Source of the DNA: a virus
DNA: 22,108 nucleotides
Strand: one strand, 5' to 3'
Virus record (IMG/VR): IMGVR_UViG_3300046532_004847
Span: 1 to 22,108 of that record
Each line of letters opens with the position of its first letter. The stretch's first letter is position 1. The translations under genes and the position numbers were made by a program. Of the stretch, positions 1-19,167 are shown piece by piece. Under the pieces are notes generated by a model. That model was not told the origin of the DNA. It searched no databases and saw only the letters and a list, made by a program, of their open reading frames with translations.

Positions 1-535
1 TTTCTTCAAACCTATTTAAACTATCGCAAAAGGGAAGTTCGGTTTGATGGTCTGTATAATTTTTTAAAACACTTAAGAATAGGTTGGCGTGTTCTATTTT
101 AGGTATACAACTGAGTGTATAATACTTGTGGCCCACCTCTTTACAGTACTTACTCCAGTGTAAATCCCAACCTTTTACTTTAACGGAATGATGTGATCCA
201 GCGTAACATTGATTTGTATGTTTTTCTAGGTACTTTGCCTTCTGGACAGCCTCGTTCCATGTGGTGTCTACTCCAACCGCCTCGCTTGTCACGGATATAA
301 CGGCGTGAGAATAAAAACTAAAAAGTGGAATATTATCCTCTGTAGATAAAACTGATAATTTAATATTAGATTGATCACATATGGCAAAGATGGCAGGTAA
401 CATTGAATGGTTTTTTATTTCTCCAAACCAAGGACATACCACAATTTCTCCATCGAATTTTCTCTCAGGGTAAAACTCATAAACCTTGTGTCCCTTATCG
501 TTTTTGTAGGAGTAATCTATTGTTTTGATATTCAT
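1..535 (-). CDS. Unrecognised protein, 3' end cut by the window edge
   Basis: An open frame begins with ATG at 535 and runs without a stop to base 1 (about 178 codons), so the C-terminus lies outside the window. The start overlaps the stop of the upstream methyltransferase gene in an ATGA, the coupling seen at several junctions here, which supports both the start and the frame. The product begins MNIKTIDYSYKNDKGHKVYE and is soluble-looking, with many aromatic, Cys and His residues (for example GSHHSVKVKGWDLHW near residues 118-132). I see no signal peptide, membrane segment, nucleotide-binding loop or metal motif that I can assign. Its position at the end of a run of sugar-modifying genes suggests glycan metabolism, perhaps a glycosyltransferase or related enzyme, but that is inference from context only. 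Confidence 0.75.
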   Translation of the reverse strand, partial: MNIKTIDYSYKNDKGHKVYEFYPERKFDGEIVVCPWFGEIKNHSMLPAIFAICDQSNIKLSVLSTEDNIPLFSFYSHAVISVTSEAVGVDTTWNEAVQKAKYLEKHTNQCYAGSHHSVKVKGWDLHWSKYCKEVGHKYYTLSCIPKIEHANLFLSVLKNYTDHQTELPFCDSLNRFEE

Positions 536-1077
536 TTGACGCCCCAAAAGTTCATGTAATTCTCTTGGTGTAGTTCAACGCTTTGGGCGTCGAAAAACTC
601 GTCAACCGCCCTCGTTACTCCGGGAAAATCTGGCTCTGGTTTATCGGGGTGTTCGCCGTAATCATGGCCAGATAATATCCCGCCTTTTTTGAGCTTCGGA
701 TACCAAGCCTCTAGATCAGCCATGCAACCTTTGTAGCTATGATCCGCGTCTACATAAACAAAGTCTATTGATTCATCATCGAAAAGACGAGAGGCGTTTA
801 CCGTCCAATTATTAATTTGAAAAATATTTTTGTAGCGCTTCCAAAGAAGGGGTCTTTGGAATTGAACATCAACAGCTATAATTTTTAAATCTTTATATAC
901 CCTAGCTAAAAGCTCAGGAAGAAAACTACCCAGCGAGCCTAGCTCTACAAAGGTTTGAGGTTTGTGTTCCTGCACGAGTTTATCTATAATTAAGCCCGTC
1001 TCCCAATGACTCCATCGGTGGCCTAGGGTTTTTTCTATATCTCGTCTATTTTCCATATCTTTTATGTTCCGTAACAT
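532..1077 (-). CDS. Class I SAM-dependent methyltransferase (Methyltransf_24-like)
   Basis: This is a small Rossmann-type methyltransferase, probably acting on a sugar or a small nucleotide-linked substrate. The SAM-binding motif I is VELGSLG (residues about 44-50), followed by an acidic strand end IIAVDVQ (66-72). A second signature, DADHSYKGCMADLEAW (110-125), and KKGGILSGHDYG (130-141) are characteristic of the family often found beside glycosyltransferases. At about 181 residues it is a bare catalytic domain. Two starts are possible: the ATG at 1077, overlapping the preceding gene by 32 bases, or the ATG at 1056 (MENRRD...), overlapping by 11, which is closer to the spacing of the neighbours. 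Neither has a clear ribosome-binding site. It ends in an ATGA overlap with the next gene. Methyl transfer is well supported; the acceptor is unknown. Confidence 0.85.
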   Translation of the reverse strand: MLRNIKDMENRRDIEKTLGHRWSHWETGLIIDKLVQEHKPQTFVELGSLGSFLPELLARVYKDLKIIAVDVQFQRPLLWKRYKNIFQINNWTVNASRLFDDESIDFVYVDADHSYKGCMADLEAWYPKLKKGGILSGHDYGEHPDKPEPDFPGVTRAVDEFFDAQSVELHQENYMNFWGVK

Positions 1078-2104
1078 TACCTAAATCAACTATAGGATCA
1101 TCGAATATTGGGTTTTTTAAAAGATTAAGAAACTCGTCACGCTCCGGATGATCCTCTCGCCACACAGCGACACTCCCAAACCCTTCTGGCGAAAACGTAC
1201 CCCAGTTAATTATTTTAGAAAAATAAACTTTATCCACCCCTAACCTTTTTCCCAACTTAACGAAGTCAATCATCTCTTTGTAGTTGACTTCCTGAACGAC
1301 AAAATCCAATCTTAATTCGTTTATCATTTTTTGTCTTCTTAACGAAGAGAGGAAGATTAAATTTTCCTGAAGTTTCCCCCAGTGCCCTCCCCTGCGCGTA
1401 ATTTTGTACGTATCTTCAGTGGACGCGTCTATGGAGACGATGACCGTATTAACGTTTTTCTGTATTTTCAACATTTTTCCCCAAGTTTTCTGGTTAAACA
1501 AGACTCCATTTGTCTGAAGATTAAAAAGCACTTTAGGGAAATTAGAGCCATCTACGTTAAATAAAAAATCTCTAAATATTTTTGATCCGAAAGGGTCTCC
1601 TGACCCAGTAACGTTTATCAAGCAGTATCTATCGTGAGGCTTACTGAAAACTTCTTTCGCTATTTGTTCTTGGATTTTCAAGCTTCTCTCGTAAGCGGGT
1701 CCTGAAGTAACACTAAAAGTTTTCTTTCTACAGCTAGGACAGCTTAAGTTGCAAGACTTATCATGACATAAATTATAAAAAATTGGAGAGAGGTCATCTA
1801 CGGTATGATTGTCAATAATGTCGCGGTGACGCTGGTCTTGTATTGAGTCTCTGGTCGGTAACGAATTGGATTTTATGTGAGGGCATAATTCATGATTACA
1901 ATGACGAAATGAGCCATCTAAAATACTTCTCCTTATTTCTTTTACATCCTCGTTGTTGAAGGCCTCCTTGACAGAGTATTTTTCATTTATGGGGGGCGTA
2001 TGATAATTTAACCACGAAGGGCAACATAAAGAAGCTTGCCCGTTAGGGTGAATTTCGAAATGGTCAAACGGTTTATGACAAAATTTATTAGAAACACTTT
2101 CCAT
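1046..2104 (-). CDS. Radical SAM protein with an N-terminal SPASM/twitch-like cysteine set
   Basis: The 352-residue product has the radical SAM cluster motif CNLSCPSC (C118, C122, C125; CX3CX2C), which binds the [4Fe-4S] cluster that cleaves SAM. A GxGDPF segment follows near residue 168 and NLQTNG near residue 195, both typical of the radical SAM barrel. Before the barrel lies a second cysteine-rich region: C9 in a CHKPF context, an HPNG turn, C27-C28, then C69 and C74 (CNHELCPH). This looks like the auxiliary-cluster-binding SPASM or twitch motif, which in most known enzymes follows the barrel rather than precedes it. Such proteins modify peptides, proteins or sugars; here the neighbours are a sulfotransferase, a methyltransferase and glycosyltransferases, so a carbohydrate substrate is my inference. 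The start overlaps the sulfotransferase gene by 17 bases. Confidence 0.88.
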   Translation of the reverse strand: MESVSNKFCHKPFDHFEIHPNGQASLCCPSWLNYHTPPINEKYSVKEAFNNEDVKEIRRSILDGSFRHCNHELCPHIKSNSLPTRDSIQDQRHRDIIDNHTVDDLSPIFYNLCHDKSCNLSCPSCRKKTFSVTSGPAYERSLKIQEQIAKEVFSKPHDRYCLINVTGSGDPFGSKIFRDFLFNVDGSNFPKVLFNLQTNGVLFNQKTWGKMLKIQKNVNTVIVSIDASTEDTYKITRRGGHWGKLQENLIFLSSLRRQKMINELRLDFVVQEVNYKEMIDFVKLGKRLGVDKVYFSKIINWGTFSPEGFGSVAVWREDHPERDEFLNLLKNPIFDDPIVDLGNVTEHKRYGK

Positions 2105-2804
2105 CGTTATTCTTTAGCGCTGGGAAATTATAGTCAAATGCCCGTAAATCATCTTGAAAATTTTGAGTGACATAATTGTAAGAATTTTGATTATAAGTAT
2201 CTTGAAATTTAAAATCTTTCTGATCCGGTAAACTTTCGTTTTTTTTGAGCAGCTTTATTCTTGGTAAGTTAAAAAGACCACAGAAATAACTAAAGCATTG
2301 GACTAGTTCTTCGAACTTAAAAAGGCCATCTACTAATTGCCTGTTACGGAAATCCAATGGAACTTTAATATTTTTAGGGGATTCGCAAATCATCTGGACT
2401 TGCGGGCGAGCGAGTGATCCCGCTCGATTACTTTGCAAGAAGTCTTCAAAAGATACCCCTTTGACTCTTTTCTGTTTCCCTCTCGTATCTGTGCCCCCTG
2501 TCGCGCACCACCAGTTATAAAGGGAGACAAGTCTAGAGTAAGGGTTACGCACACAACTAAATACGTAATAATTTTGCCATATTTCTTCACCCAATCTCTC
2601 TCTTATTTCAAGAGCGGAGCTATGCTTATGAAGCTCCCCTGCAGTTTTTTTTTCTTCATCGTCTTGGAGCTCGTGATTGGGGTGACCACCTAAAATTATA
2701 TCCTGTTGCAAGTCTAAGAACGGGTAAAGAGCGTCAACAATGCTAGTCCCAGCCGTCTTCGGGGCATGAACAAAAATAAATCTATGTTTATGACTAATAA
2801 TCAT
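2088..2804 (-). CDS. Carbohydrate sulfotransferase (Sulfotransfer_2-like)
   Basis: This is a predicted PAPS-dependent sulfotransferase that moves a sulfuryl group to a sugar hydroxyl. The 5'-phosphosulfate-binding loop is HAPKTAGTS (residues 13-21) right after the first beta-strand, and the 3'-phosphate-binding segment is CVRNPYSRLVSLYNWW (84-99), with the expected Arg and Ser. This order and spacing is the signature of the family of membrane or soluble carbohydrate sulfotransferases. No transmembrane anchor is visible, so it probably acts in the cytosol, drawing PAPS from the host because no PAPS synthesis gene is seen here. The 238-residue length is normal for bacterial members. The start overlaps the preceding glycosyltransferase stop in an ATGA, and its 3' end overlaps the radical SAM gene. 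Confidence 0.9.
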   Translation of the reverse strand: MIISHKHRFIFVHAPKTAGTSIVDALYPFLDLQQDIILGGHPNHELQDDEEKKTAGELHKHSSALEIRERLGEEIWQNYYVFSCVRNPYSRLVSLYNWWCATGGTDTRGKQKRVKGVSFEDFLQSNRAGSLARPQVQMICESPKNIKVPLDFRNRQLVDGLFKFEELVQCFSYFCGLFNLPRIKLLKKNESLPDQKDFKFQDTYNQNSYNYVTQNFQDDLRAFDYNFPALKNNDGKCF

Positions 2805-3895
2805 TTTAAAGATTTGTATATTTCGCTTTCCTCTAAACTCTTCCTGAAATAGTTTCCATCAAGCCTCCGTCTTGTTTCGCAGGTTAACAAATATTGATGG
2901 GCTTTCTCAATTAGATCGTAATCTAAAGCTTTAGCCGCCGCTTCGTCAAGGGTATCAAAAAACAAGGGATAATCTTTGCCGAAGTATTCTATAGTAGCCG
3001 GAAGCTTATTAATTAAAGTTGGCGTAGCTCTGGCGATAGCCTCAATCACCCCATTGTTAGCGCTAGAAGCATAAAGGTCCAAAAATAAAATGTTATCTAT
3101 AAAAATATTATCATAGGCCTCGTTGCTTAATCTGGTTAAGTCGTATGTATTGTCATTATATTTCTCAGGCACGTCTTTCCCGTGAATCTCTTTTTGTTTA
3201 ATTAAAAAATAATTAATTGTCTTTATTGGACTCTCTCCTACGTAAGGCAAAAGCCTAATCTTTCGATAACCTGAAGACTTATCCAAGGGTAAAAGGAAAA
3301 GACTTAGCATATTCCTTAGCCAGTATCCTATTAAGAAAATTTTCTTATCTTCATTTTTTAAAAATTTTTGAAAATTAAAAATTTTATCTGGCGTCTCCGT
3401 AGGGTGAATTAAGGGATGAGTGGGAATCCCGGTTTCAGACTGAACATATTCAGCTAAGTCAGTAGAAAGAGTGAAGAAGCCCTTGCACGTTTTCAAGCTC
3501 TCCTGAAACTGAGGCTTGACAATTATTTTCTCTAAAGAGTTGAATCCGAAAAACCATTCCGGGGTAAATGGCGGGTTGTGTAATACGCCTACCCAATCTT
3601 GGTCGTAAGTTTCAATCTCTCTTTTCCATGAAAAATTTCTTTCGACAAAGGAGTCGAAAAACACCCCCTCATCATTGTGAAGGGGTGCTAGTTGATCTAA
3701 AACGTAAGACCATCCACTTCGGTGATTCCCGAAGCACGGCTGCTCGTTTAAGTTTAATTTCCCAGAAGACGCCCCTTCGATTATTTTAAAAGTCTTATCA
3801 TAGCTTCCCCAAGCGTTATTCTCCCAACGCTCTTTCTCGTTAAGGGTTTCGGCTATTTCGACTTTATAATCATTAAAGGAATGAATACGACTCAT
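2801..3895 (-). CDS. GT-B-fold glycosyltransferase
   Basis: A 364-residue protein that I read as a two-domain GT-B glycosyltransferase. The best evidence is its C-terminal half: SANNGVIEAIARATPTLI followed by KLPATIEYFGKDYPLFF, matching the nucleotide-sugar-binding EX7E region of retaining GT-B enzymes, where the donor diphosphate and sugar are held. The N-terminal half has short hydrophobic strands (DQDWVGVLHNPPF, then CKGFFTLSTDLAEYV) consistent with the acceptor-side Rossmann domain. I chose the ATG at 3895, two bases after the stop of the lipoprotein gene. An upstream in-frame ATG at 3928 would add 11 residues and overlap that gene by 31 bases. Specific sugar and acceptor are unknown. It is the first gene of the second glycan block, just after the lysis cassette. 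Confidence 0.78.
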   Translation of the reverse strand: MSRIHSFNDYKVEIAETLNEKERWENNAWGSYDKTFKIIEGASSGKLNLNEQPCFGNHRSGWSYVLDQLAPLHNDEGVFFDSFVERNFSWKREIETYDQDWVGVLHNPPFTPEWFFGFNSLEKIIVKPQFQESLKTCKGFFTLSTDLAEYVQSETGIPTHPLIHPTETPDKIFNFQKFLKNEDKKIFLIGYWLRNMLSLFLLPLDKSSGYRKIRLLPYVGESPIKTINYFLIKQKEIHGKDVPEKYNDNTYDLTRLSNEAYDNIFIDNILFLDLYASSANNGVIEAIARATPTLINKLPATIEYFGKDYPLFFDTLDEAAAKALDYDLIEKAHQYLLTCETRRRLDGNYFRKSLEESEIYKSLK

Positions 3896-3897
3896 AG

Positions 3898-4116
3898 CTA
3901 GTCTTGAGGAAGGCCGCCAGCGTACCATCCTTCAGGAAGCTTTACCTTGTTCTTCGACAAAATCCATTCTCCGTCTTTAAGAACGTAAACTTTCCCGGCT
4001 GGGAAGTCGGGGCCTACCCTAATTAGATTTGATTGCGTGTCAACGAAAACGACACGAGTAGAGCCACATCCTAAAAGTAGCAAGCAACTAATTATTAGTG
4101 GGAGTATCTTCTTCAT
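3898..4116 (-). CDS. Small outer-membrane-type lipoprotein of the lysis cassette
   Basis: The 72-residue product starts with a classic lipoprotein signal: MKK, a hydrophobic stretch (ILPLIISCLLLL) and the lipobox LLGC with Cys17 as the lipidated residue. The mature part is about 55 residues and contains VGPDFPAGKVYVLKDGEW and a C-terminal LPEGWYAGGL. I recall similar 'VGP..G.VYV..DGEW...LPEGW' lipoproteins beside phage holins, but cannot verify this here. It starts inside the preceding small gene in another frame (29-base overlap), an architecture reminiscent of spanin pairs in which a lipoprotein o-spanin gene is nested in or overlaps the i-spanin gene. A role in outer-membrane disruption is therefore plausible but unproven. 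Presence of a lipobox and outer-membrane-type lipoprotein would suit a Gram-negative host. Confidence 0.75.
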   Translation of the reverse strand: MKKILPLIISCLLLLGCGSTRVVFVDTQSNLIRVGPDFPAGKVYVLKDGEWILSKNKVKLPEGWYAGGLPQD

Positions 4117-4276: not shown

Positions 4277-4282
4277 AGTATT
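4271..4282 (-). repeat. 12-base start-site repeat, copy 2 (small charged protein gene)
   Basis: Identical to the 12 bases at 4488-4499: AATACTATGGCG on the minus strand, here overlapping the last codon of the holin-like gene and the start of the small charged protein gene. No Shine-Dalgarno sequence is present at either copy. Confidence 0.6.
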
Positions 4283-4493
4283 AGCCTTTCTTGGCTAGCC
4301 CCCTAGAGACGGTATACCCCAAAGCTGCGGCTGCGCTGCAGACGAATCCAAAGATTTTATCAGCGTTTGAAGTTCCCTCCGGGTCCACCATTCCTGCTCC
4401 CCATGCGAGAGAACCGAAAGCCACGCAAACCGTGATCCAGAATTCCGTAGTTTTCCAGCCGGGTTTTACGCTATTATTTTTATTAGTCGCCAT
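4281..4493 (-). CDS. Holin-like two-helix membrane protein
   Basis: A 70-residue protein with the organisation of a class II-type holin: a short polar N-terminus, KPGWKTTEFW leading into a first hydrophobic helix (about residues 17-36), a polar turn VDPEGTSNADK, a second hydrophobic helix (about 46-62, FGFVCSAAAALGYTV) and a basic end SRGLAKKG. The combination of KPGWKTTEFW and ALGYTVSRGLAK is familiar from annotated phage holin-like proteins. It would form the inner-membrane lesion that triggers lysis. No endolysin gene is visible in the window, so the muralytic partner must lie elsewhere. It is the first gene after the 116-base gap and sits directly behind a sigma70-like promoter, with a predicted leader of only a few bases and no ribosome-binding site. 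Confidence 0.75.
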   Translation of the reverse strand: MATNKNNSVKPGWKTTEFWITVCVAFGSLAWGAGMVDPEGTSNADKIFGFVCSAAAALGYTVSRGLAKKG

Positions 4494-4609: not shown

Positions 4610-5812
4610 CTAAATTAGGTCCCCTAGACGAGCTAGCTCATCCAATTTAACTTGAGGTTTTTCCAGCCCCCCTACAGCGCTAAACACTATAAGCGTTGGC
4701 TTGTCGCCACTGTATATACCTCTATGGACTACACTATGAGGCTTCAGCATTCTCGATAACTGATCGAAGGCTTGATCCAAACTGGACTGAGGGATTGTGT
4801 TAAGTTGTTCCGTCCCTCCGATCATAACCGCCGCAGCGCAATTGCCCGTAGATAAATCTACGCCGCCCGTTAGAATGTTATTCTTAAGATTTTCCCGAAC
4901 AGCTCTAGAAATTGCAATAGGATCATTCCAGTCATCTACAGGCGAGGCTCCAAAAACCATGAGCCCAGAATTAAGGAGACTGCCGTAATCATTAGAATCA
5001 AAAGCGGAATAAGTGCTATCTTTCGCTGCTGTATGATTAAATAAATGAAATAAGCCAGCCATACTATGATTAGCGGCTTTCCAAAATTGAGACACGGCTA
5101 AATTTGGATACAGCGTCCCAATTTTTTCATTATCTATTAAAATAAGCGGAGAGACGATCCCTTTTTCCACCAATCCATAAGCCTCTTTTAAAACGCCGTA
5201 AGCATTAGCGTTTACCCTTTTACCTTCTGAATTTTTTGGTAAAGCAAGGATTACTCCGACCTTAGTGTCTCTAGCTTTTAACGTTTTTAAAAGCTCTTGA
5301 GATGATTTAACTAAAGGGATGACCGAGCCAGAGCCCGTACCTCCCCCGGCTCCCGCGCACACAAAAATTTTATCTACTTCATCCCCGAAGCTATTCCTCA
5401 TGAAGTCTAAAACGTCCCCCTCTTTGTCCTCAAAACATTTGGTAGCTACAGCAGGGTCTTTACCTGCCCCTCCGTCTCCAATGCATAATTTGTTTTTTAG
5501 CTTAATCGTATTTAAATCTTGTTGAGCAGTGTTTACGACGCCTATCCTTCTATAGCCTAAGTCATGAAAGGTCTCGGCTATACGGGAACCACCTTGCCCT
5601 GCTCCTATAAATCCAAATTTGAAAGCTACTGCGGCAGCGTCTTGAATTGTGTTTTTCTTTGCTTTTTCAGGAGGAGGAGGAATAAGTAAGTCTGGCATGG
5701 AGATGTCTACCGGATCGTTATAGAGGGTCTTGACTTGACTCTCTACTATCTCTTCTTTTTTACTCTCTTCTGGGGAAGGAGTCTCTAGTGGGGTAAGATT
5801 ATCGTTTTCCAT
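4610..5812 (-). CDS. FtsZ/tubulin-like GTPase
   Basis: A 400-residue member of the FtsZ/TubZ/tubulin superfamily, expected to bind GTP and polymerise. After a proline- and acid-rich, probably disordered N-terminus (1-60), the Rossmann core starts with FGFIGAGQGGSR (T1 loop, 67-77). The tubulin signature GAGGGTGSG (154-162) is intact. VVNTAQQDL (92-100) corresponds to the T3 region. FDSNDYGSLLNSGLMVFGAS (271-290) resembles the FtsZ T7 loop and helix, with D272 and D275 as candidate catalytic aspartates. The motif set looks like active FtsZ-type GTPases. It is encoded four bases after the portal gene, so it is probably made with the packaging proteins. Phage tubulins such as PhuZ position capsids or phage DNA; a similar job here is inference. 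An open 23-codon extension follows its TAG stop. Confidence 0.9.
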   Translation of the reverse strand: MENDNLTPLETPSPEESKKEEIVESQVKTLYNDPVDISMPDLLIPPPPEKAKKNTIQDAAAVAFKFGFIGAGQGGSRIAETFHDLGYRRIGVVNTAQQDLNTIKLKNKLCIGDGGAGKDPAVATKCFEDKEGDVLDFMRNSFGDEVDKIFVCAGAGGGTGSGSVIPLVKSSQELLKTLKARDTKVGVILALPKNSEGKRVNANAYGVLKEAYGLVEKGIVSPLILIDNEKIGTLYPNLAVSQFWKAANHSMAGLFHLFNHTAAKDSTYSAFDSNDYGSLLNSGLMVFGASPVDDWNDPIAISRAVRENLKNNILTGGVDLSTGNCAAAVMIGGTEQLNTIPQSSLDQAFDQLSRMLKPHSVVHRGIYSGDKPTLIVFSAVGGLEKPQVKLDELARLGDLI

Positions 5813-5816
5813 TTTT

Positions 5817-7793
5817 TTAAAATTTACTTGCTAATAAAAGACTGCCTAAATATATGTCTACGTTATGTTCCGCGCAAATAGCGTGAACCTGCTTGACTCT
5901 TTCTTTATCATTATCTTGCGGCTTTTTGCAGTATGAAGTCACGCTTTTTTCCCATCTAGAGGGCTCCTCGTTACAGATGATTATATCGCAAATCTCAGCA
6001 GCTACCTCTTTCTGCTTCTTATTTAGCCTTTTTACTCTATGAATCTTTCTAAGCTCCGCCTCCGCTAGAGAAGTTAATTTCTGAGATAGAATCATATTGT
6101 CTTTAAGCCGAGCGAAGTCAAATTTCACGCTTGCTTCCCCTTGACCTACGGGAGTCGATTTCCTCTCTTCTTGAGGAATACCTTCGGTCCCCTCAGGCCT
6201 CCCCGCGCTCTTTGGGGGGCTCTCTTTCTTATCGACGTCTACTTTTTCTTTTAAATTTATATTTTCAGTTATCTTTTTTGAGCCCATTATAGGCTCGTAG
6301 AATCCGTCATTTTTAGCTTTCTTAAAGTCCTCCTGAGATTCAAGAGAGTCTTTCCTGTAAGGCAAACGATTAGTTTTAAGAGAGTCAAATAATTCATCAG
6401 CCGTAATAGCTCCTAGCTCATATAAACGAGTATAAACTCTGTCCTTCGTCACTGAGTCTTTAAGGCTTATTTCTTGAAAATAAGGAGTAGGGTAGTTCTT
6501 GAGTCCCATCGTCTTAGCGATTTTCTTAATTTCCGGAATTAAAAATTTCTGCAAGAAGGCTTGACGCCCCTGCTCTAAACGGGCAAGAAACACCTGTATC
6601 TTACTTTCTTGATTCGCGAACTTTTCTCCCCCTACTAAAATGTTATTAAGACCTAAGTTAATATCTTGGTCAAATATTTCATATTTTTTAGAATCTAAAA
6701 GCTCTGAAATCTTAGGGATTACAAATTCCGCTTTTGTCGTGTAGTCAGAGATGAGTACTCTCCCTACGGACTGATTTTGAAATAGCTCCTGCATGGCCGC
6801 AAGATTCCTTTGGTTAATCCCTCCTTTTTCTGGGTCCGTGCCCATAGTGACTAATAGAATCGCTTGCTGCATAGTGCGAGCGATTGCCATGTCCATTTTT
6901 TTAAGCTCGCTCTTCGCGTTGATATCCTCTAAAACTGGATAACCCATAGGAACACCATAAGGTTCGTAATCTTGTTTTTTATAAAAAACAGTCATCACTC
7001 TGTCCATATCTAAAGGAATCTTAAGTCCTTGGGAAGAGCTAACGTTTATATCCTGAATTTGTTTCTGAATTTCTTCAGGAAGAGAATCGAAAATTGTAAA
7101 ATCTTCCGCTGAAACGGGGTTCCGTAGCCTATTCACTTCGTATCCTGAGAGATTTTTATAATAAACAGGATTGTAAAAGCTTAAATTTCCAGTAAGCCTG
7201 ATGTCAGCGGGATTTAAAAGGACGTACTTTAAAGGGAGAGTTAGCTCATCCGTGAGAGCCTGAGCTGAAGGAGAAGCCCCAAAAACTTGAGTCATTTTTT
7301 TAATATCTTCTTTTTTCACTTTCCCATCAAATCGATATAAAAATACGTTACCCGAACGATAGTACTCTCTAAAAAACTGATCCTGAATTCCCCATACATT
7401 TATTTTATTAAAAAACGCTTCGAAAAAGTCCCTCGACTTCTTGCTCCCTCCCTTGAAGAATAAGGAGCCGCAAGAGAACTCAGTCATTAGGTCGATAACG
7501 TTTCTAAACTGAGCAAAATTATAATAAGCTTTTTGACATAAAATTACAGCGTCTCTGACGGTAATGTCCTTGTCTCCCCCATAGATAGCGGAATATCTCC
7601 AAGGGATTAAGCCGTCGTCAATATTTTTATATTTATCAGTGCGCTCAATATCAGCAGCTCTATTACGTCGAGTAGACGTTCGTTGCGTAGAAAGATTTGA
7701 CGCCGCCGCCATCAAGGGGGTGATGTCTGCGCTTTTGGCTGTAGATGCTTTAGCCACTTCCTTTTTCCCCTGCGTATTTGCTTTAGCCCTCAT
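5817..7793 (-). CDS. Phage portal protein with long C-terminal extension
   Basis: A 658-residue portal protein, the dodecameric ring through which DNA enters the capsid and to which terminase and tail bind. Evidence: position directly after the large terminase gene; a lysine/threonine-rich disordered start (1-50); a mixed alpha/beta body with DQFFREYYRSGNVFLYRF (138-155) and KYVLLNPADIRL (189-200), typical of portal wing domains; and the conserved late segment with DQDINLGLNNILVGGEKFAN (375-394) and RLEQGRQAFLQKFLIPEIK (405-423), typical of the stem/crown helices. After about residue 510 comes a Pro/Gly/Glu-rich linker (AGRPEGTEGIPQEERKS near 530-546) and a separate roughly 100-residue helical tail containing five cysteines, which I do not recognise. 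No Shine-Dalgarno sequence precedes the ATG. Confidence 0.87.
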   Translation of the reverse strand: MRAKANTQGKKEVAKASTAKSADITPLMAAASNLSTQRTSTRRNRAADIERTDKYKNIDDGLIPWRYSAIYGGDKDITVRDAVILCQKAYYNFAQFRNVIDLMTEFSCGSLFFKGGSKKSRDFFEAFFNKINVWGIQDQFFREYYRSGNVFLYRFDGKVKKEDIKKMTQVFGASPSAQALTDELTLPLKYVLLNPADIRLTGNLSFYNPVYYKNLSGYEVNRLRNPVSAEDFTIFDSLPEEIQKQIQDINVSSSQGLKIPLDMDRVMTVFYKKQDYEPYGVPMGYPVLEDINAKSELKKMDMAIARTMQQAILLVTMGTDPEKGGINQRNLAAMQELFQNQSVGRVLISDYTTKAEFVIPKISELLDSKKYEIFDQDINLGLNNILVGGEKFANQESKIQVFLARLEQGRQAFLQKFLIPEIKKIAKTMGLKNYPTPYFQEISLKDSVTKDRVYTRLYELGAITADELFDSLKTNRLPYRKDSLESQEDFKKAKNDGFYEPIMGSKKITENINLKEKVDVDKKESPPKSAGRPEGTEGIPQEERKSTPVGQGEASVKFDFARLKDNMILSQKLTSLAEAELRKIHRVKRLNKKQKEVAAEICDIIICNEEPSRWEKSVTSYCKKPQDNDKERVKQVHAICAEHNVDIYLGSLLLASKF

Positions 7794-7815: not shown

Positions 7816-9642
7816 TTAAACCATTCTAGGCAAAAAAGTAGTAGAAAAGTCGTCCTTCTTTTGCCGTAAGTCAAAGTAGCATTTTAACGCCCAATTCGCC
7901 AGCATTAAAGCTGTATAGTTATCTCGCCTCGCCCGATTAGCAGAAGTGCTTCTTTTGAGGTGCTGCGGAAGGTCGAAGGTTTGAGTTCCTTTAGCTGTGC
8001 TTTTGACCTCAATTAGAGCGCACTGCCTCTTAGTTTGGTAAACTAGAGCATCTTGAGTCTCAATTAAGTCGCTTACAGTTTCTGCTCCGGTGAACTTTAA
8101 GTTAATTAAAGTATTGTTTTGTTTATCAAACGCTGAACCGTTAGCGGTAGTTCTTGAGGCAAACCAAATATGCTTATAGTCGATGCAAGCCTGAAGGTGT
8201 TCATTAGCTTTTCGTATAAACTCGCTTGTAAAATTTTGTTTAAAACAAATTCTATAATTGCTCTTATTATAAGAGGTTTTACATTTTCTTATCTCTTTAG
8301 TGTAGTCGATTCCCTCTTTTACGGAGTCAAACTCTATGAACTTAAGATTAATTCCGGCGTTGACAAAGTTCTCTGACTCATTGCAGCTATCTAAAAATTG
8401 ATACCCCGCGTTATCAATGCAAATCATTTCTACATCGAAACTTGTTAGTATGTAAAAGAAATAATTTATGTGGTCTTTTAAATCGCCCCCTGCCACAGCA
8501 TAATTGTGCACTAAAGTTCCTTCTTTTCTTTCTTCATCAATTTCTAGAAGAGAAATGGCAAAGTAATCAGACGCGGGGCTATTACTAAAACTGGGGTCAA
8601 TACCAATCATGTATTTTTTTCCCTTTCCTCCTTTAACTAAAGTCGTGGGCTCTTCTCCGTCTGGAATAGTACATTCGTGCATTTTCTTTGCACTAAAATA
8701 GCTATCACTTCCGTCTGTAAATTGAGCGCAATACTCTCGCAAAAATGAAGAGTGGGACTGGCCGCCGCCTTGAGCTTCTTCAATGATAGTTTTATCAATC
8801 ATTTCAGGAGGAAGGGCTTCGTACCCTAATTGAGATATAAAATATTTCGCATTATAGTTCTCGTTATCATAAATCTTAACCATCCATTCTTTATAAGTCT
8901 TATATAAATTTTCAAAAGTATAAGAGGCTGAAGAAAGGGCAATCATTTTTGAAGAGTTTTCAAAAACCATTCGGTCCTCTTCTTTCATTTTTCCAGAGTT
9001 AATGAATTTATCCTCCATTTCTCTAATTTCGATCCTCTCCTTCATGTTCTGGGGAGCGACCAAGAAGGGCATTAATACCGTTTGGATTATCTCCTCCGGT
9101 AACAATAGGTACTCGTCCAGCACAAGTATGTTAGCTCTAAAGCCTCGAATTTTTTCCCCACTTAAAGGTATCGCTGTAATGCTCCCGCCGTTCACCTCCC
9201 ATTCGTATTGATCATTTCTCTTCGAAGGGCGCTTGCAAAAAGCTTGTTGGAGAAGCTCGGCTCCCCTAGTCTTGACGATTTTCTCCAAATTGTTAAATAT
9301 AAAGCGAGCTGTACGAAAAGTGGGGCCAGCTATTAAAATTTTAGTCCCGGGGTTAAATATGCATTGCAAGAAGCAAAAAACAGAAGCTATAAAAGTCTTA
9401 CCGCAGCCACGCCCCCACACGCACATGGAAAAATTTCGAGTCATGAACCCCTTGAGGGTAATTTCCTGATAAGGAGCTAATTTTATTCCCGATATTAACT
9501 CCGTAGTAAATCCCACGTTCGAATTTAGAAAGCGAGCCAAGGACAGACGAGCTTCTTTATCTTCTAAATAACCGTCAAGCTTTAACAGCTCTTTATTGGT
9601 GTTACTAATGCTACTTTTATATTTGTCGGGAGCGTACCACAT
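7816..9642 (-). CDS. terL: Terminase large subunit (packaging ATPase and nuclease)
   Basis: The 608-residue packaging motor translocates DNA into the prohead and cuts the concatemer. The N-terminal ATPase has a Walker A motif GRGCGKT (77-83), a Q-motif-like LAPYQ (55-59), a Walker B strand with catalytic acid NILVLDE (171-177) and the coupling motif ALSSAS (235-240). The C-terminal RNase H-like nuclease starts with YMIGIDPS (344-351, D349), then MICID (406-410, D410), and a third acidic site is probably the Asp in ETQDALVYQ near the C-terminus. Length and order are those of T4 gp17-like enzymes. It begins two bases after the ERCC4 nuclease gene. The start ATG (MWYAPDK) has no ribosome-binding site. 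Confidence 0.95.
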   Translation of the reverse strand: MWYAPDKYKSSISNTNKELLKLDGYLEDKEARLSLARFLNSNVGFTTELISGIKLAPYQEITLKGFMTRNFSMCVWGRGCGKTFIASVFCFLQCIFNPGTKILIAGPTFRTARFIFNNLEKIVKTRGAELLQQAFCKRPSKRNDQYEWEVNGGSITAIPLSGEKIRGFRANILVLDEYLLLPEEIIQTVLMPFLVAPQNMKERIEIREMEDKFINSGKMKEEDRMVFENSSKMIALSSASYTFENLYKTYKEWMVKIYDNENYNAKYFISQLGYEALPPEMIDKTIIEEAQGGGQSHSSFLREYCAQFTDGSDSYFSAKKMHECTIPDGEEPTTLVKGGKGKKYMIGIDPSFSNSPASDYFAISLLEIDEERKEGTLVHNYAVAGGDLKDHINYFFYILTSFDVEMICIDNAGYQFLDSCNESENFVNAGINLKFIEFDSVKEGIDYTKEIRKCKTSYNKSNYRICFKQNFTSEFIRKANEHLQACIDYKHIWFASRTTANGSAFDKQNNTLINLKFTGAETVSDLIETQDALVYQTKRQCALIEVKSTAKGTQTFDLPQHLKRSTSANRARRDNYTALMLANWALKCYFDLRQKKDDFSTTFLPRMV

Positions 9643-10582: not shown

Positions 10583-11671
10583 CTAGCCTTCTAAAACCTC
10601 TTCTTCGGTTAAACCTAATACTCTCGCTCTGATTTCATCCATATTCGAGATATTATTAATCTCTTCAGATAGAACGTCTTTTCTCATCTCGGCTAAAGCT
10701 ATCATTTTCTTCCTGCCCTCTTCATCTCTCCATATCTCTACTAAGTTTAAAATGCTTGCGTTATCTTTTTGCTGATTCTTTAGTCTAGAACTTCTTTTTT
10801 CCTTAAGGTCGTCTAAAAGCTTATGTTGCCTATTTACTGATTGATGGTATTCATTTTGAGCTGTATTTATAGACTCGACAAGAGCCATTGAGATTCTTCT
10901 CCCTTCGCTGTCGTTAGCTGCGTCATCAAGAAGCCCCTGAAGGTGCTCTACTCTTCGCTGAATATTAGAGGCTATAACCGCTTCTCCTGAGAGGACGATG
11001 TATTGATCTATCTCTTCGTGGCTTAAGTCCGGTTTGTCATGAGTATAACGAACAAAGCTGCTCTCATATAATTCGCGATCAACATTTGTTGATAAATGAT
11101 TCATATGATGAAGAAACCTGAAGGTATGCAGATACCGAATCAACATCTCGCAATTTTTTTTATTCGCCGCAGTAATCTTGCTTCTGTCAATACCCTCTAA
11201 GATATATTTATTAACTTTAGCTATCGCCCGATCTACACTCCTAGGCGGCTTATACTCTTCTTGGGGAATTTCCCCTGCCCGAAAGCCTTCTTCAGGACTT
11301 AGCGACTGAATATACTCCTGAACAGAGCGGGCTTCTGGACTGAGATTTGAAAGATTGGAATCATCGAAAAGTAGACGAGCTATCTCCACAAAACTCATCA
11401 TACGATAATGATTATCAATAAACTCCGCATCCTCTTCAGATAATTTAGTTTTTTCTTTTGGTTGGTATTGATGGGAAGCCTTAGCTTTTAATCCCCTTTC
11501 CACTAAAGCAGCTTTTACAAGTCTACCGTACTTACTCCTGCCGTCTTTCATATTCTCGGGCTCATCGCTAAAGAAATGGTCTACGAAAGCAGAAGTTAAA
11601 GGCTTTATGTCGCTGCACCCTTCTTCAAACTTTTTCCAAATGAATTCCTTATGTTGGTCGGTAGGTTTCAT
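10583..11671 (-). CDS. Helical protein of unknown role, possible small terminase subunit
   Basis: I do not recognise this 362-residue protein. It is predicted to be almost entirely helical and soluble. Two N-terminal segments could be helix-turn-helix units: residues about 42-60 (DGRSKYGRLVKAALVERG) and about 80-118, where SFVEIARLLF is followed by EARSVQEYI. The C-terminal part (about 230-300) is rich in Arg, Lys and Glu with heptad-like spacing, suggesting a coiled coil. DNA-binding N-terminal helices, an oligomerising middle and a position shortly before the large terminase match what a small terminase subunit would look like, but the protein is longer than most. A transcriptional or structural role is equally possible. 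It starts one base after the sigma factor stop with no ribosome-binding site. Confidence 0.7.
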   Translation of the reverse strand: MKPTDQHKEFIWKKFEEGCSDIKPLTSAFVDHFFSDEPENMKDGRSKYGRLVKAALVERGLKAKASHQYQPKEKTKLSEEDAEFIDNHYRMMSFVEIARLLFDDSNLSNLSPEARSVQEYIQSLSPEEGFRAGEIPQEEYKPPRSVDRAIAKVNKYILEGIDRSKITAANKKNCEMLIRYLHTFRFLHHMNHLSTNVDRELYESSFVRYTHDKPDLSHEEIDQYIVLSGEAVIASNIQRRVEHLQGLLDDAANDSEGRRISMALVESINTAQNEYHQSVNRQHKLLDDLKEKRSSRLKNQQKDNASILNLVEIWRDEEGRKKMIALAEMRKDVLSEEINNISNMDEIRARVLGLTEEEVLEG

Positions 11672-11672
11672 A

Positions 11673-12368
11673 TTATAAAATATCTATTTCATTATCTTGT
11701 AAAACTTTTTTTACTTTAGCTATTATTATTTTCTGTATATTTTTTATTTGTTTGTAACCGGGCTTTCTATCTTTTTCAGAAGTTTTATAGCCTACGGTTT
11801 TTGCTGCTTCTTCTTCGGAGAGGTTATCAATATATAAAGCTTTGTAAACCTTCCATTCCAAAGGCTTTAAAATACTCTCCATTTTAGAGTGTAATTTAGC
11901 CGCATTAGAAAAAAAATTATCCTCCGCATAGCTCTGGCTTTTAACTTCAAATAGATGATTTTCTAAGGGCACGGCTATCTTAACGTCATGAGCAATTTTT
12001 TTAGTTTTTTCCCATTTGGAAACTAAGGGACATACGTTATCTTGCTTTCCGTACACTAGGCATCTATCCTGCGGTTCGGCTGCCGCACACCGAGAACACG
12101 GCTTAGAATAATTACCGTAATTATTCCTTATGATGTTCTTTATCTGATTAGTTATTATCCGATTTAACCACGGAGCCAATGGGTAGGCGGAGTTGTAAAG
12201 ATGCCATTTTTTAAAAAGGTGCAATTTAATTATCTGTGAAACGTCATCAAAGTCAAGCCAGCTTAGAGAATGAAGAGTCCACCTTCCCTTCCTTTTCTCT
12301 ATTTCTCTATTTATTAATAAAATAGAATCCTCAAAAGAGGGCTTAAGCTTTTTCTTTTTTTTAGCCAT
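11673..12368 (-). CDS. Phage RNA polymerase sigma factor with cysteine-rich insertion
   Basis: A 231-residue sigma70-superfamily protein. Residues about 35-82 (WLDFDDVSQIIKLHLFKKW, then PLAPWLNRIITNQIKNIIRN) fit sigma region 2, which binds core polymerase and the -10 element. Residues about 162-222 (ILKPLEWKVYKALYIDNLSE, then EAAKTVGYK and QIKNIQKIIIAKVKKVL) fit region 4, the helix-turn-helix for the -35 element or a clamp contact. Between them lie four cysteines, C91-X2-C94-X8-C103-X9-C113, arranged like a zinc site, absent from ordinary ECF sigmas. It would redirect host polymerase to phage, most likely late, promoters, as T4 gp55 does. It overlaps the zinc-ribbon gene by eight bases, and the two may work together. 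Confidence 0.8.
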   Translation of the reverse strand: MAKKKKKLKPSFEDSILLINREIEKRKGRWTLHSLSWLDFDDVSQIIKLHLFKKWHLYNSAYPLAPWLNRIITNQIKNIIRNNYGNYSKPCSRCAAAEPQDRCLVYGKQDNVCPLVSKWEKTKKIAHDVKIAVPLENHLFEVKSQSYAEDNFFSNAAKLHSKMESILKPLEWKVYKALYIDNLSEEEAAKTVGYKTSEKDRKPGYKQIKNIQKIIIAKVKKVLQDNEIDIL

Positions 12369-12768: not shown

Positions 12769-12934
12769 TAAATATTTACACCAAAACATTAATAAATTAA
12801 AAGAAATTTTAGAAATTTCTTATCCCTTCTGCAAGCATAGCGATCCCGATGTCGCACAAGGAGCAGCTATGATTAACAAATTAGCCAAAGAGTCTTTGGA
12901 TAACGTAGAAAAAGCTTCAAGGCAGACTCTTTAA
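12755..12934 (+). CDS. Small uncharacterised protein, the only plus-strand gene
   Basis: A 59-codon ORF from ATG at 12755 to TAA at 12934. It fills almost all of the interval between the zinc-ribbon start and the end of phoH, and overlaps the phoH stop convergently by 18 bases. The product begins MKTSNKYLHQNINKLKEILE and continues with SYPFCKHSDPDVAQGAAM and a helical end NKLAKESLDNVEKASRQTL. It is hydrophilic and probably two helices around a short CKHSDPD turn; I recognise no family. Support: it fills a gap otherwise too long for this compact genome, a palindromic -10-like element precedes it, and the opposite strand has no usable ORF here. Against: short length, opposite orientation and no ribbon-like or membrane motif. 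It could be a small regulator of the adjacent transcription genes. Confidence 0.6.
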   Translation: MKTSNKYLHQNINKLKEILEISYPFCKHSDPDVAQGAAMINKLAKESLDNVEKASRQTL

Positions 12935-13726
12935 CTTTTTCACCAAAAACTTGACGAGCTCTGACCTCATGATGTCTTCTTCAGTAAATTCGAAATTGTA
13001 AACGCCATTTTCTGAGCTCTCTTCATCAGAGAATAATTTAAACATTTTCTGAAAGCCGCCGCCCCCTCCATTTCTTAAGTCTGTTTGCGCGGGGTCGGCT
13101 AACACAAAGCATCTACTATTTTCTCCAAGCCTTGTCAGTACAGTGGTAATTTCTTTAATGGTAGAATTTTGAGCCTCGTCTAAAATTATACATTTATTTT
13201 TCCAATTCATCCCTCTAGCGAAGTTTACTGGAAACATAGAGACTCTGCCCTCTTCTTCTAGCTTTTCTGGCTTAAAGTTAATTAGCAATTCATCTAACTT
13301 ATCTAAAAATGGTAAATTATAAAATTTTAATTTGTCGTCCGCAGTTCCCGGAAGAAAACCTAGTTTAGATTCTGAGCTTTCCACTGCTGATCTCAAATAC
13401 ATAATGTCCGAAGTAGCTTTCATATTCAAAAGCTGAAGGCCGCAATAGACGGAGAGGAGAGTCTTAGAGGTTCCTGCTGGGCCATTAACAAAAACTATTT
13501 TAGTATTAGGATTTAGAGCTATTTTAAAAAAGTCTTTTTGCTTTTGCGTCCACGAAAATTGATTAAGCTTAATTTGTCTTTTGATTGGGTTTTCGACGGT
13601 AGTCTTCTCGTGATTGTTATTCAAGCCCTTAGCTACGTCGCTCCCCCCTCTGATTTTAATGGAAGTTTTCGAGTCGGAAGACTCGCTCATCGAAGCCCGT
13701 TTAGAGCTTGCAGTTTTTTTTCTCAT
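12917..13726 (-). CDS. phoH: PhoH-like P-loop ATPase
   Basis: A 269-residue PhoH-family protein. After a Ser/Lys-rich, probably flexible N-terminus (1-50), the domain starts with FSWTQKQKDFFKIAL (57-71), a Q-motif-like adenine contact, followed by Walker A GPAGTSKT (82-89), YLRSAVESSESKLGFLPG (110-127), a hallmark PhoH segment, and Walker B CIILDEAQN (179-187, D183-E184). Sensor-type ADPAQTDLRNGGGGG follows. PhoH ATPases are widespread in phages, especially marine ones; their function is unsettled (RNA-linked or phosphate-stress-linked roles have been proposed). It lies 15 bases after rmlB and before the plus-strand small gene, so it ends the first glycan transcript or starts a short unit of its own. 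Confidence 0.92.
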   Translation of the reverse strand: MRKKTASSKRASMSESSDSKTSIKIRGGSDVAKGLNNNHEKTTVENPIKRQIKLNQFSWTQKQKDFFKIALNPNTKIVFVNGPAGTSKTLLSVYCGLQLLNMKATSDIMYLRSAVESSESKLGFLPGTADDKLKFYNLPFLDKLDELLINFKPEKLEEEGRVSMFPVNFARGMNWKNKCIILDEAQNSTIKEITTVLTRLGENSRCFVLADPAQTDLRNGGGGGFQKMFKLFSDEESSENGVYNFEFTEEDIMRSELVKFLVKKLKSLP

Positions 13727-13741
13727 CAGCTTATATTACAC

Positions 13742-14692
13742 TTAAGAGCTAAATTTTCCGGAATAATGTTTTAAAGTAAGAGTCAAGCCGTCGTTAAAGC
13801 TGGTTTGAGGTTCCCATTTTAAATCTTTTTTTATTTTGGAAGCGTCAATGGCGTAACGATAATCGTGGCCCGCTCTATCCGCCACAAACCTAACTGCTGA
13901 AGCGTGACTTTTACCTAAAGCTTCACATATCCTTATTACCACTTGCAGGTTACTCATTTCACAATCAGCCCCCACTAAATACGTCTCTCCCACCTTCCCC
14001 TTGGTTAAAACTTTCCAAATCGCCTTGCAGTGATCTTTTACATAAATCCAATCTCTTACATTAGTTCCCGTTCCATAAACTGGAATCAATTCGTTATTCT
14101 GAAGCTTGCGAATAATAGTCGGAATCAGTTTCTCTTCGTGCTGGTTGGGGCCGTAATTATTAGAGCAGTTAGAGATGGTCGCTTTGAGCTTGTGAGTGTT
14201 AACGTAAGCTCTTACTAAAAAATCCGAGGAAGCTTTAGTTGCTGAATAAGGGTTACGAGGATCATAAGCAGTCTCTTCCGTGAACCGTTCCCCCTCTCCA
14301 GCCTCCCCGTATACTTCGTCAGTTGAAACGTGATGAAATCTGGCTTTGAATTTTTTAGCAGCCTCCAGAAGGGCGTGAGTCCCCACGATGTTAGACTCCA
14401 CAAATTCTTTTGACCCTTTTATGGAGTTGTCCACATGAGACTCCGCTGCTAAATGAACGACGTGAGTAATGTCATGTTTATAAAACGAGTCGTAAACTTT
14501 GTCGTAGTTAGAAATGCTATATTTTTCTAAAAGGTATTTGGGGTTGGTACAAAAACTTTTTGTATTATCTAGGGAGGAGGCATAAGATAAGCAGTCTGCA
14601 TTTACTATCTTACTTACTCCTTTTTTATTTATTATATGCTCTATAAAGTTAGAGCCAATAAAGCCGCATCCGCCTGTTACTAAAATGTTCAT
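13742..14692 (-). CDS. rmlB: dTDP-glucose 4,6-dehydratase
   Basis: A 316-residue extended SDR enzyme that converts dTDP-glucose to dTDP-4-keto-6-deoxyglucose. Evidence: NAD-binding GGCGFIG (7-13), HLAAESHVDNS (80-90), the catalytic STDEVYGE (123-130) with T124, D125 and E126, YSATK (149-153) with Y149 and K153, the substrate segment NCSNNYGPNQHEEKLIP (175-191) and the family-specific AGHDYRYAID (274-283). These match RmlB rather than GDP-mannose dehydratase or UDP-sugar epimerases. It is slightly shorter than typical RmlB but no catalytic part is missing. No RmlA (dTDP-glucose synthesis) is seen, so the substrate presumably comes from the host or from genes outside the window. The product could feed the DegT aminotransferase and RmlD-like gene upstream. 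Confidence 0.93.
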   Translation of the reverse strand: MNILVTGGCGFIGSNFIEHIINKKGVSKIVNADCLSYASSLDNTKSFCTNPKYLLEKYSISNYDKVYDSFYKHDITHVVHLAAESHVDNSIKGSKEFVESNIVGTHALLEAAKKFKARFHHVSTDEVYGEAGEGERFTEETAYDPRNPYSATKASSDFLVRAYVNTHKLKATISNCSNNYGPNQHEEKLIPTIIRKLQNNELIPVYGTGTNVRDWIYVKDHCKAIWKVLTKGKVGETYLVGADCEMSNLQVVIRICEALGKSHASAVRFVADRAGHDYRYAIDASKIKKDLKWEPQTSFNDGLTLTLKHYSGKFSS

Positions 14693-14700
14693 TTCTGGTT

Positions 14701-15459
14701 TTATGTTTCTAAGATTTTATAAATTTGGTCCCTGCTTCCTAATTGATCTGTAAAAACGGCCTTGTATTGACCCAGTATTTTATTTTCCTTACAGTCGCCC
14801 CATTTATCAGACATCTTTTGGTAAAGGTCGGCATCTAAATTGCTGGTTAAAGGAAAATCGAAAAAGATTTTATCTTTCAGGAAGCTGTCTCTTCTCCACG
14901 ACACCTGAGAGGCGTCCACTAGACAACAAGCGTTTGGAATCGAGCCTGACGCATTAAGAGGGTGCTCACTAGGCTCGTCAAGTAGATGTATTTTTTGCAA
15001 TTCAAAAATATTTTCATGATCCAATGGGTTATAGATTGCGACTCGACAGTAAGAGTAAATCACCTCCGAATTTTCCAAATAATACGAATTTAATTCTTTT
15101 AAATAATTTTTATGAAGAGCGTCGTCGTCGCACAGCATTAGGCAGATGTCTGCGTTTGAGTGCTTCTCTATGGCGGTATTCGCAAAGCTGCCAAAAAGAG
15201 AGCCTCCTCTTTTTTCCTTTTCTTCTAAAGAGTCTCCGGTGGCTATCACCTTGACTTTGCCTCTTCCATTATAATGGGGGTTTTTCTCTTTAAATTCTTT
15301 AACTATTTTTTCTCCATCTTGATTCGAACTGTCATCAATCAACGTCAATTCCCAATTTGTATAATGAGACTCGAAGACGCTAGCTATCGCAAAATTAGAT
15401 GCCATTTTGGGTCTATCATAATAAAATAACAGAATTTCAATTTTTAGGTCTTTGATCAT
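14701..15459 (-). CDS. GT2-type (GT-A fold) glycosyltransferase
   Basis: A 252-residue glycosyltransferase of the GT-A fold. The N-terminus IEILLFYYDRPKMASNFAIA and NWELTLIDDSSNQDG (34-48) is the nucleotide-binding start of GT2 enzymes. The metal-binding acidic motif is LMLCDDDALHKNYL (near residues 106-119), and the C-terminal half has WRRDSF and NLDADLYQKM, where an acidic residue could act as catalytic base. No membrane helices are present, so it is a soluble transferase. The donor and acceptor cannot be told. The start overlaps the GNAT-glycosyltransferase gene by 23 bases in another frame. Confidence 0.83.
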   Translation of the reverse strand: MIKDLKIEILLFYYDRPKMASNFAIASVFESHYTNWELTLIDDSSNQDGEKIVKEFKEKNPHYNGRGKVKVIATGDSLEEKEKRGGSLFGSFANTAIEKHSNADICLMLCDDDALHKNYLKELNSYYLENSEVIYSYCRVAIYNPLDHENIFELQKIHLLDEPSEHPLNASGSIPNACCLVDASQVSWRRDSFLKDKIFFDFPLTSNLDADLYQKMSDKWGDCKENKILGQYKAVFTDQLGSRDQIYKILET

Positions 15460-16624
15460 GTAATACTACTCGAGACGGGAAGTCGATCCCTCTGTGTTTG
15501 TACTGTTTCCATGACAATACGATGCCTTCTCTGCGAGAGCAATAGAGTTCTAAGTTTAATTCCTTTTTTATTATATTGGTAAAAGGAATCTCCCCCCTTC
15601 GCTCATGATCCAAGCTTATTCCGCTCGAAAAATGAAAAGGAAGAGCTCCCCTCTTTAATGGCTCCGAATAATTTACGTTCTGAACCGCTTCTAAGACGGA
15701 TCGAGTAGTCACACCACACCCCCCATTACAATGGCTCTCCTGACACCCCACGACGCCGTAAAAGCCTATCTCTGAGTCAAGCCTCCTAAATCTTTCTACA
15801 GCATCGCTCATTATCCCATTTTTTAAAATTATATGGTCATCTTCTAGAAAAAACCAATAGTCGTAATCATTTTTAAAATTATTAAAAGCAAAATCAAAAG
15901 CACCAAAGGAAGCCCCTATATTCTCCCTCTCAAGGACTCTGATTCTCCCGTTTTTTGTAAGAGTCTCATCTAGGGAATTTATGAAATTTGCACAGGAAGG
16001 GTTTCCATCAAAAATGTTATTTATAATGAAAATATCCATAGGATAACCGTAATCAATTTGCTTTTCTGTTTTCCACCAATATTTAAGCATCTCTAAGTTG
16101 TGATGAGGTGTCCAGCCTTCGCCTCTGAACGCGCCCCTTCTTCCGCCGTACCAAGTACATATAACTTTAGCCGCTTTTCCGCGAAACTCATTCAGTGCAA
16201 GCTCCATGTACAAATCGTTTTCCGTTTCCTCTTTCACCTCAAAGCCTAGCCTCTTGTAAAGATTGAAAGCTACGACATTGACCCTTAGGACTCTTAGCGT
16301 AGCCTTGCGGTAAAGCTTAAACCTTAATCTTTCCAATAGCTTTTCGTACGCAGCCTTTGCGTATCCCTTACCTCGATGACTGGGGCATATATCCATTCCT
16401 ATCTCAATGTCGGGGTAATTAGAAACTGTCCGGACATACCCCACCTCCTTATCTTGATAAATGATTTTTAACCATTCTGGATTTTCCCTAGAAAACCACT
16501 TAGTGAATTGAGACTTAGAGAACTTCCGGGAGTTGTGTAAAAAACTTCGAGTAGAGTCATCGTTGCGAATTTTCAAAATAAAATCACAATCCTCCACTTT
16601 TACTTTAGCAAACTTTATATCCAT
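15437..16624 (-). CDS. GNAT acetyltransferase fused to a GT-A-type glycosyltransferase
   Basis: A 395-residue two-domain protein. Residues 1-142 are a GNAT N-acyltransferase: the acetyl-CoA loop HRGKGYAKAAYEKLLERL (83-100, RGKGYA) and the closing NVVAFNLYKRLGF (116-128). Residues about 152-395 form a glycosyltransferase-like domain: KVICTWYGGRRGAFRGEGW (153-171), LERENIGASFGAFDFAF (231-247) and DYWFFLEDDHI (255-265), with EDD (261-263) as the likely metal-binding motif. The fusion suggests one protein acylates an amino sugar and transfers it, or acts on neighbouring residues. The C-terminal domain is clearly related to the next gene upstream (16615-17343): both carry REN followed 28 residues later by EDD. 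It overlaps that gene by 10 bases. Confidence 0.82.
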   Translation of the reverse strand: MDIKFAKVKVEDCDFILKIRNDDSTRSFLHNSRKFSKSQFTKWFSRENPEWLKIIYQDKEVGYVRTVSNYPDIEIGMDICPSHRGKGYAKAAYEKLLERLRFKLYRKATLRVLRVNVVAFNLYKRLGFEVKEETENDLYMELALNEFRGKAAKVICTWYGGRRGAFRGEGWTPHHNLEMLKYWWKTEKQIDYGYPMDIFIINNIFDGNPSCANFINSLDETLTKNGRIRVLERENIGASFGAFDFAFNNFKNDYDYWFFLEDDHIILKNGIMSDAVERFRRLDSEIGFYGVVGCQESHCNGGCGVTTRSVLEAVQNVNYSEPLKRGALPFHFSSGISLDHERRGEIPFTNIIKKELNLELYCSRREGIVLSWKQYKHRGIDFPSRVVLHDQRPKN

Positions 16625-19166: not shown

Positions 19167-19167
19167 C

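Follow-up and report, generated by a model that had tools for sequence, protein, structure and literature searches.

The window analysed here, a virus record of 22,108 bp that is probably a fragment and comes from an uncultured, mostly aquatic phage, encodes a tubulin/FtsZ-superfamily GTPase whose ATG lies 4 nt past the stop codon of the portal gene (gap 5813-5816). This GTPase is TubZ-like by its fold and its T7 loop, yet it is neither a plasmid TubZ nor a PhuZ and belongs to a distinct phage clade, which is spread over many uncultured phages. Its sequence strongly implies that the protein forms filaments, and its position next to the portal gene is a strong trait of one phage lineage.

A constrained GTPase gene with a complete tubulin fold

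The gene and its motifs lie on the reverse strand of the window as follows (position, strand, feature, basis).

4610..5812 (-): TubZ-like tubulin/FtsZ-superfamily GTPase, 400 aa (profiles, AlphaFold2 model, Foldseek, trees)
5588..5617 (-): T1 loop FGFIGAGQGG, residues 66-75 (sequence and conservation)
5327..5353 (-): T4 tubulin signature GAGGGTGSG, residues 154-162 (sequence and conservation)
4988..5005 (-): T7 catalytic loop AFDSND, residues 270-275, with FDSND at 271-275 (alignment)
5633..5812 (-): N-terminal extension, residues 1-60, with 13 D/E and 6 K/R (model and composition)
5672..5707 (-): conserved short motif DISMPDLLIPPP, residues 36-47, with a family pattern like DISLPDIPMP (alignment)

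The assignment to the tubulin/FtsZ superfamily on the basis of T1, T4 and T7, proposed in the preliminary description, was borne out: the Pfam profile PF00091 (Tubulin) matches the protein over its cut-off (E 5e-10), and the motifs are conserved in 56 members. The alignment of these diverse members contains the invariant positions G72, G75, N94, D99, G157/158/160/162, D227, N228 and D272, among them the glycines that bind GTP and, as D272, the catalytic Asp of T7; within the T7 loop of the aligned members, position 275 is either Asp or Glu. The FtsZl1/Tubulin_2 profile PF13809, which is 356 positions long, gave no full-length match and aligned with 63 residues around T4 only.

An AlphaFold2 model built on the 56-member alignment (pLDDT 91.6, pTM 0.86) displays the complete two-domain tubulin fold. 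The second (activation) domain is entire, and neither the model nor Foldseek places the protein in an unrelated Rossmann family. The best Foldseek match is the TubZ protofilament 2xka (TM 0.72, ∼380 aligned columns), followed by FtsZ and CetZ, and the best solved relative by sequence is TubZ 4ei7 (2e-16, or 4e-40 using a profile). Among viral folds (BFVD), the best match is A0A6J5RW92 from an uncultured Caudovirales phage, a relative with 25% identity that has already been deposited under the name 'FtsZ Cell division GTPase' and is known here by this database name alone.

The gene is real and under purifying selection like those of the large terminase subunit (TerL) and the portal. Indeed, the GTPase is 88% identical at the amino acid level in two other lineages, on other contigs where the gene order is kept, and its pN/pS, calculated with near-saturated synonymous sites, is 0.10, with similar values for portal and TerL. 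It occurs as a single copy per contig in the 25 contigs tested, several of which are 158-235 kb long, with one reaching 428 kb.

A clade separate from FtsZ, PhuZ and plasmid TubZ

In a tree of 62 proteins without CetZ, where the deep placement of long branches is uncertain, FtsZ (100/100), PhuZ (100/100) and six Bacillales plasmid TubZ (99/99) each form a separate clade. The window GTPase falls in a fourth clade (support 96/90), where phage proteins stand together with genes from MAGs of Planctomycetota, Omnitrophota, Chloroflexota and Zymogenaceae.

The canonical FtsZ-like signature read in the preliminary description does not translate into FtsZ identity, nor does the phylogeny group the protein with FtsZ. 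The score for the NCBIfam equivalog TIGR00065 is 58.9 bits against a cut-off of 295.2 bits, and the nearest solved structures are TubZ. FtsZ and the GTPase have in common the superfamily, the T1 and T4 loops and the two domains, but identity is ∼20% and the Asn of the FtsZ T7 sequence NxDxxD is an Ala in the window. The T7-like DSND segment thus does carry the catalytic Asp, but in a loop of TubZ type. The T4 loop of plasmid TubZ is equally canonical and not weaker as had been assumed for known phage tubulins. CetZ (4b45, 3zid), which is archaeal, offers a good fold match (target-normalised TM 0.83) with 22% identity.

PhuZ (phiKZ gp39, in nucleus-forming jumbo phages) is likewise a phage-encoded tubulin, but its fold match is weaker (BFVD TM ∼0.5) and it belongs to another clade. 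PhuZ identity was rejected on the trees and because the GTPase does not match phrog_4733, whereas phiKZ PhuZ does. Closer in structure are the TubZ proteins of Bacillus and Clostridium plasmids and of phage c-st (2xka, 3m89, 4ei7, 4xcq), with a common fold at TM ∼0.72, a shared T4 motif and FDxxD/E T7 loop, and a near full-length profile match. They differ in sequence (identity <30%) and clade, and the GTPase is devoid of their long C-tail: a median of 244 residues follows T4 in 51 members versus 297-322 in Bacillales TubZ, making the C-terminus ∼55-75 residues shorter. It also differs from them by a conserved N-terminal segment and the lack of a detected TubR neighbour. No TubR-like gene was found at the window-family loci with a profile that does recover plasmid TubR, and a complete TubRZC system was rejected on this ground.

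The jumbo-phage TubZ-like protein gp138 of Bacillus phage G shares 24% identity and a T7 loop of the form FDKND with the GTPase, but it lies in a different genome context and outside the clade in the trees. Directly upstream of it, gp137 (L009:7683-7988) shows a weak TubR-like match (E 0.003), which suggests that the two may form a TubRZ pair.

Cellular relatives were found in MAGs of Phycisphaerae and other Planctomycetota (L231-L257), with L243 assigned to Omnitrophota and L256 to Anaerolineae. The Planctomycetota chromosomal genes belong to the same supported clade with 34-39% identity, and their branches are nested next to those of phage genes; unlike the phage GTPase, they often form tandem pairs (L246, L248, L249, L252, L257). 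Homologues of the portal and terminase of the window phage were not found in the Planctomycetota gene neighbourhoods examined. A core gene of Planctomycetota, a phylum reported to be without FtsZ (PMC5147048), was rejected, as only 7 of 150 genomes at class level and 3 of 199 at phylum level carry it. A further family member (L230:5986-7200, +) contains two in-frame TGA codons. Since one of them, read as Trp, falls at a conserved FW position and the phage N-terminal motif is present, L230 probably represents a phage contig with recoded TGA that was binned into a MAG. As for hosts, the ribonucleotide reductase of a 158-kb relative is nearest to those of Tenacibaculum/Cellulophaga phages (∼50%), which does not settle the question.

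A packaging link restricted to one lineage

The genes listed below surround the GTPase gene on the same strand.

4281..4493 (-): small 70-aa protein downstream of the GTPase gene, holin-like by eye, without a family match
5817..7793 (-): portal protein, 658 aa, ending 4 bp before the GTPase gene (PHROG, Foldseek, weak SPbeta YonE match)
7816..9642 (-): terminase large subunit, 608 aa
9645..10580 (-): ERCC4-type nuclease, 311 aa, kept in the block
10583..11671 (-): conserved 362-aa block protein without assigned function
11673..12368 (-): sigma-70 region 2-like protein, 231 aa, possibly a late sigma factor
12917..13726 (-): PhoH-like ATPase, which bounds the conserved block upstream

The immediate proximity of a portal gene, as first described, was confirmed both by PHROG (portal families, E 4e-10) and by a fold search: the portal model is poor (pLDDT 61), yet its best Foldseek matches are portals. 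In one broad lineage, the genes are arranged as phoH, zinc ribbon, sigma-like, 362-aa protein, ERCC4, TerL, portal and GTPase, with occasional inserted genes. Inserted genes of ∼430-1030 aa separate the GTPase from the portal, and at other loci genes of ∼300-1060 aa separate the portal from TerL (L026-L034, L040, L109, L189; L101, L104, L156). A contig of 35.6 kb contains the window region and extends to a collagen-like tail fibre gene. On both sides, the block is flanked by many genes that resemble glycan- or surface-modification genes by eye (window 2-3928 and 13742-22090, -), including epimerases, glycosyltransferases, an aminotransferase and sulfotransferase-like types; these flanks are less conserved among relatives than the packaging block. 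Separately, in L116 and L038, and also in L115, L127, L196, L209 and L214, the gene immediately upstream of the GTPase encodes a protein of 62-73 aa (EFVSRCMGDDMMNKDFKDQKQRAAVCYSQYK type). These loci belong to two lineages whose wider context differs, and the small protein is a possible partner of the GTPase.

A scan based on the GTPase retrieved at least 79 relatives on viral contigs, and a second search found further ones. Adjacency of portal and GTPase on the same strand was recorded at 99 loci (overlapping and duplicate records counted), mostly with a gap of 1-5 bp, and is kept across portals down to ∼50% identity. Moreover, portal and GTPase distances are correlated over 34 dereplicated loci (r 0.71, 0 of 2000 permutations). 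As the samples for both adjacency and distances were picked via the GTPase, they are biased towards the link. A scan based on the portal instead yielded 15 adjacent and 3 interrupted loci, 49 without the GTPase and 13 undecidable ones, so that the GTPase is linked to the portal in 18 of the 67 informative loci. In whole-contig searches of 20 portal contigs, no GTPase copy was found in 19. Mapped on the portal tree, GTPase presence requires 6 changes compared with 23 when labels are shuffled, a pattern that we read as either an old gene of the lineage with several losses or a few gains. A universal core gene of the lineage was rejected in view of the many relatives devoid of it in the portal-based sample. 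For the same reason, the GTPase must be dispensable for packaging itself, since it is absent behind a portal of the same family in many phages.

In larger contigs of other lineages, the GTPase is present and no match to the window portal family was found. Its sites elsewhere are diverse: beside genes for a DNA polymerase and an ATP-dependent protease, among tail genes, close to a GTP cyclohydrolase gene, or a few genes off TerL. The link to a packaging operon is thus immediate at the window, as initially noted, but it is the trait of one lineage and not a rule of the family.

The N-terminal segment

The 60 N-terminal residues were initially taken as an acidic and disordered extension. The acidic character holds (13 acidic and 6 basic residues), but low model confidence is limited to about the first 40 residues (pLDDT 45-62), and residues 41-60 are ordered (79-92). 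A motif similar to DISLPDIPMP occurs in 28 of 51 members versus 0.3% of shuffled N-termini. This motif is retained in phages without a detected match to the window portal family, which makes a dedicated contact with the portal unlikely. More likely, it acts on the filament itself or on a shared partner.

Discussion

Throughout the tubulin/FtsZ superfamily, a GTPase site becomes complete through the T7 loop of the adjacent subunit, and the strict conservation of this loop here argues for a head-to-tail polymer. We give about an even chance to a late-expressed cytomotive filament that would position capsids, packaging complexes or phage DNA in the manner of PhuZ, though without a phage nucleus. 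Translation of the GTPase would probably be coupled to that of the portal; from this position in the packaging block, we infer that it is made late, together with the head and packaging proteins. Each subunit would bind head to tail to the next and complete its GTPase site with the FDxxD loop, and the resulting dynamic filament may move or position late-infection cargo such as procapsids, packaging complexes or the DNA that they package. Since the C-tail that provides TubR and filament contacts in plasmid TubZ is missing, regulation or cargo contact would probably take place via the conserved N-terminal segment. Both the nature of the cargo and this N-terminal role are tentative proposals.

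Several other explanations deserve consideration. Plasmid TubZ proteins are the closest relatives among both solved structures and annotated sequences, and in phage G, a distant relative, a gene with a weak TubR-like match lies immediately upstream; both would agree with a TubZRC-type partition, in which the GTPase separates plasmid-like or pseudolysogenic phage genomes via a DNA-binding adaptor and a centromere. We consider this unlikely, given the failure to find TubR at the window-family loci, the location of the window-lineage gene within a packaging block and not near replication or partition genes, and the missing C-tail, which in TubZ binds partner proteins (PMC5322520). A GTPase that aids assembly or packaging without forming filaments, for instance in building the portal ring or the procapsid, would account for the tight portal linkage, the correlated divergence and a conserved N-terminal segment that plasmid TubZ does not show. 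However, the preserved T7 loop is most sensible with a head-to-tail contact, the N-terminal motif is present where the portal family was not found, and many phages with this portal are deprived of the GTPase; this explanation too is unlikely.

The gene could also be a moron-like hitch-hiker with a role unrelated to packaging, being a neighbour of the portal by descent only. Its patchy distribution across the portal tree and the free insertion of other genes among TerL, portal and GTPase go in this direction, but adjacency conserved to ∼50% portal identity, correlated distances and strong purifying selection render it quite improbable. As for a block of host division, raised in the preliminary description, the GTPase might co-polymerise with host FtsZ or poison it, or its N-terminal peptide, which is acidic and proline-rich, might mimic the FtsZ tail. 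Besides this peptide, superfamily kinship with FtsZ is in its favour. The known phage inhibitors of FtsZ, however, are small proteins that are not tubulins. Identity to FtsZ of ∼20%, a different clade and nearest cellular relatives in Planctomycetota, reportedly without FtsZ (PMC5147048), make such interference highly improbable, and no support for it was obtained.

The late positioning filament is modelled on PhuZ and its late-infection role. PhuZ, the closest lytic-phage tubulin to have been characterised, carries capsids along filaments to the phage nucleus and positions this nucleus (PMC9067925). Here, the chimallin profile phrog_4795 detected nothing in 18 related contigs, which are possibly fragments, with phiKZ as a positive control; the likeliest role is thus to transport or position capsids or phage DNA as PhuZ does, though without a nucleus. 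Between these cargoes, the GTPase genes found beside the DNA polymerase in some lineages indicate that DNA positioning fits as well as capsid movement. PhuZ is missing from one third of nucleus-forming phages (PMC10299810), and the absence of the GTPase from many relatives similarly fits a helpful but dispensable role. A broader proposal, possible though rather doubtful at this stage, is that phages possess a third kind of cytoskeleton, built from a tubulin co-expressed with packaging genes that would join procapsids or portals to DNA without a nucleus, through N-terminal rather than C-terminal contacts, in many uncultured phages and with exchange with Planctomycetota.

Phage tubulins as such are already known (PMC10299810, PMC7824862, PMC9123017), so far as PhuZ in nucleus-forming jumbo phages and TubZ in plasmid-like partition. 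In the literature searched, which covered few subscription papers, no description of this GTPase clade or of its portal link was found, and both the clade and its genomic setting appear to be undescribed. A separate clade that occurs on many metagenomic phage contigs, is linked to packaging in one lineage and has neither a TubR partner nor a nucleus shell detected suggests that phages may organise their assembly with a cytoskeleton more widely than among nucleus-forming phages. It raises the question of whether phages devoid of a nucleus move capsids or DNA on filaments, and the chromosomal relatives in Phycisphaerae, within a phylum reportedly without FtsZ, offer a second question that can be put to the test.
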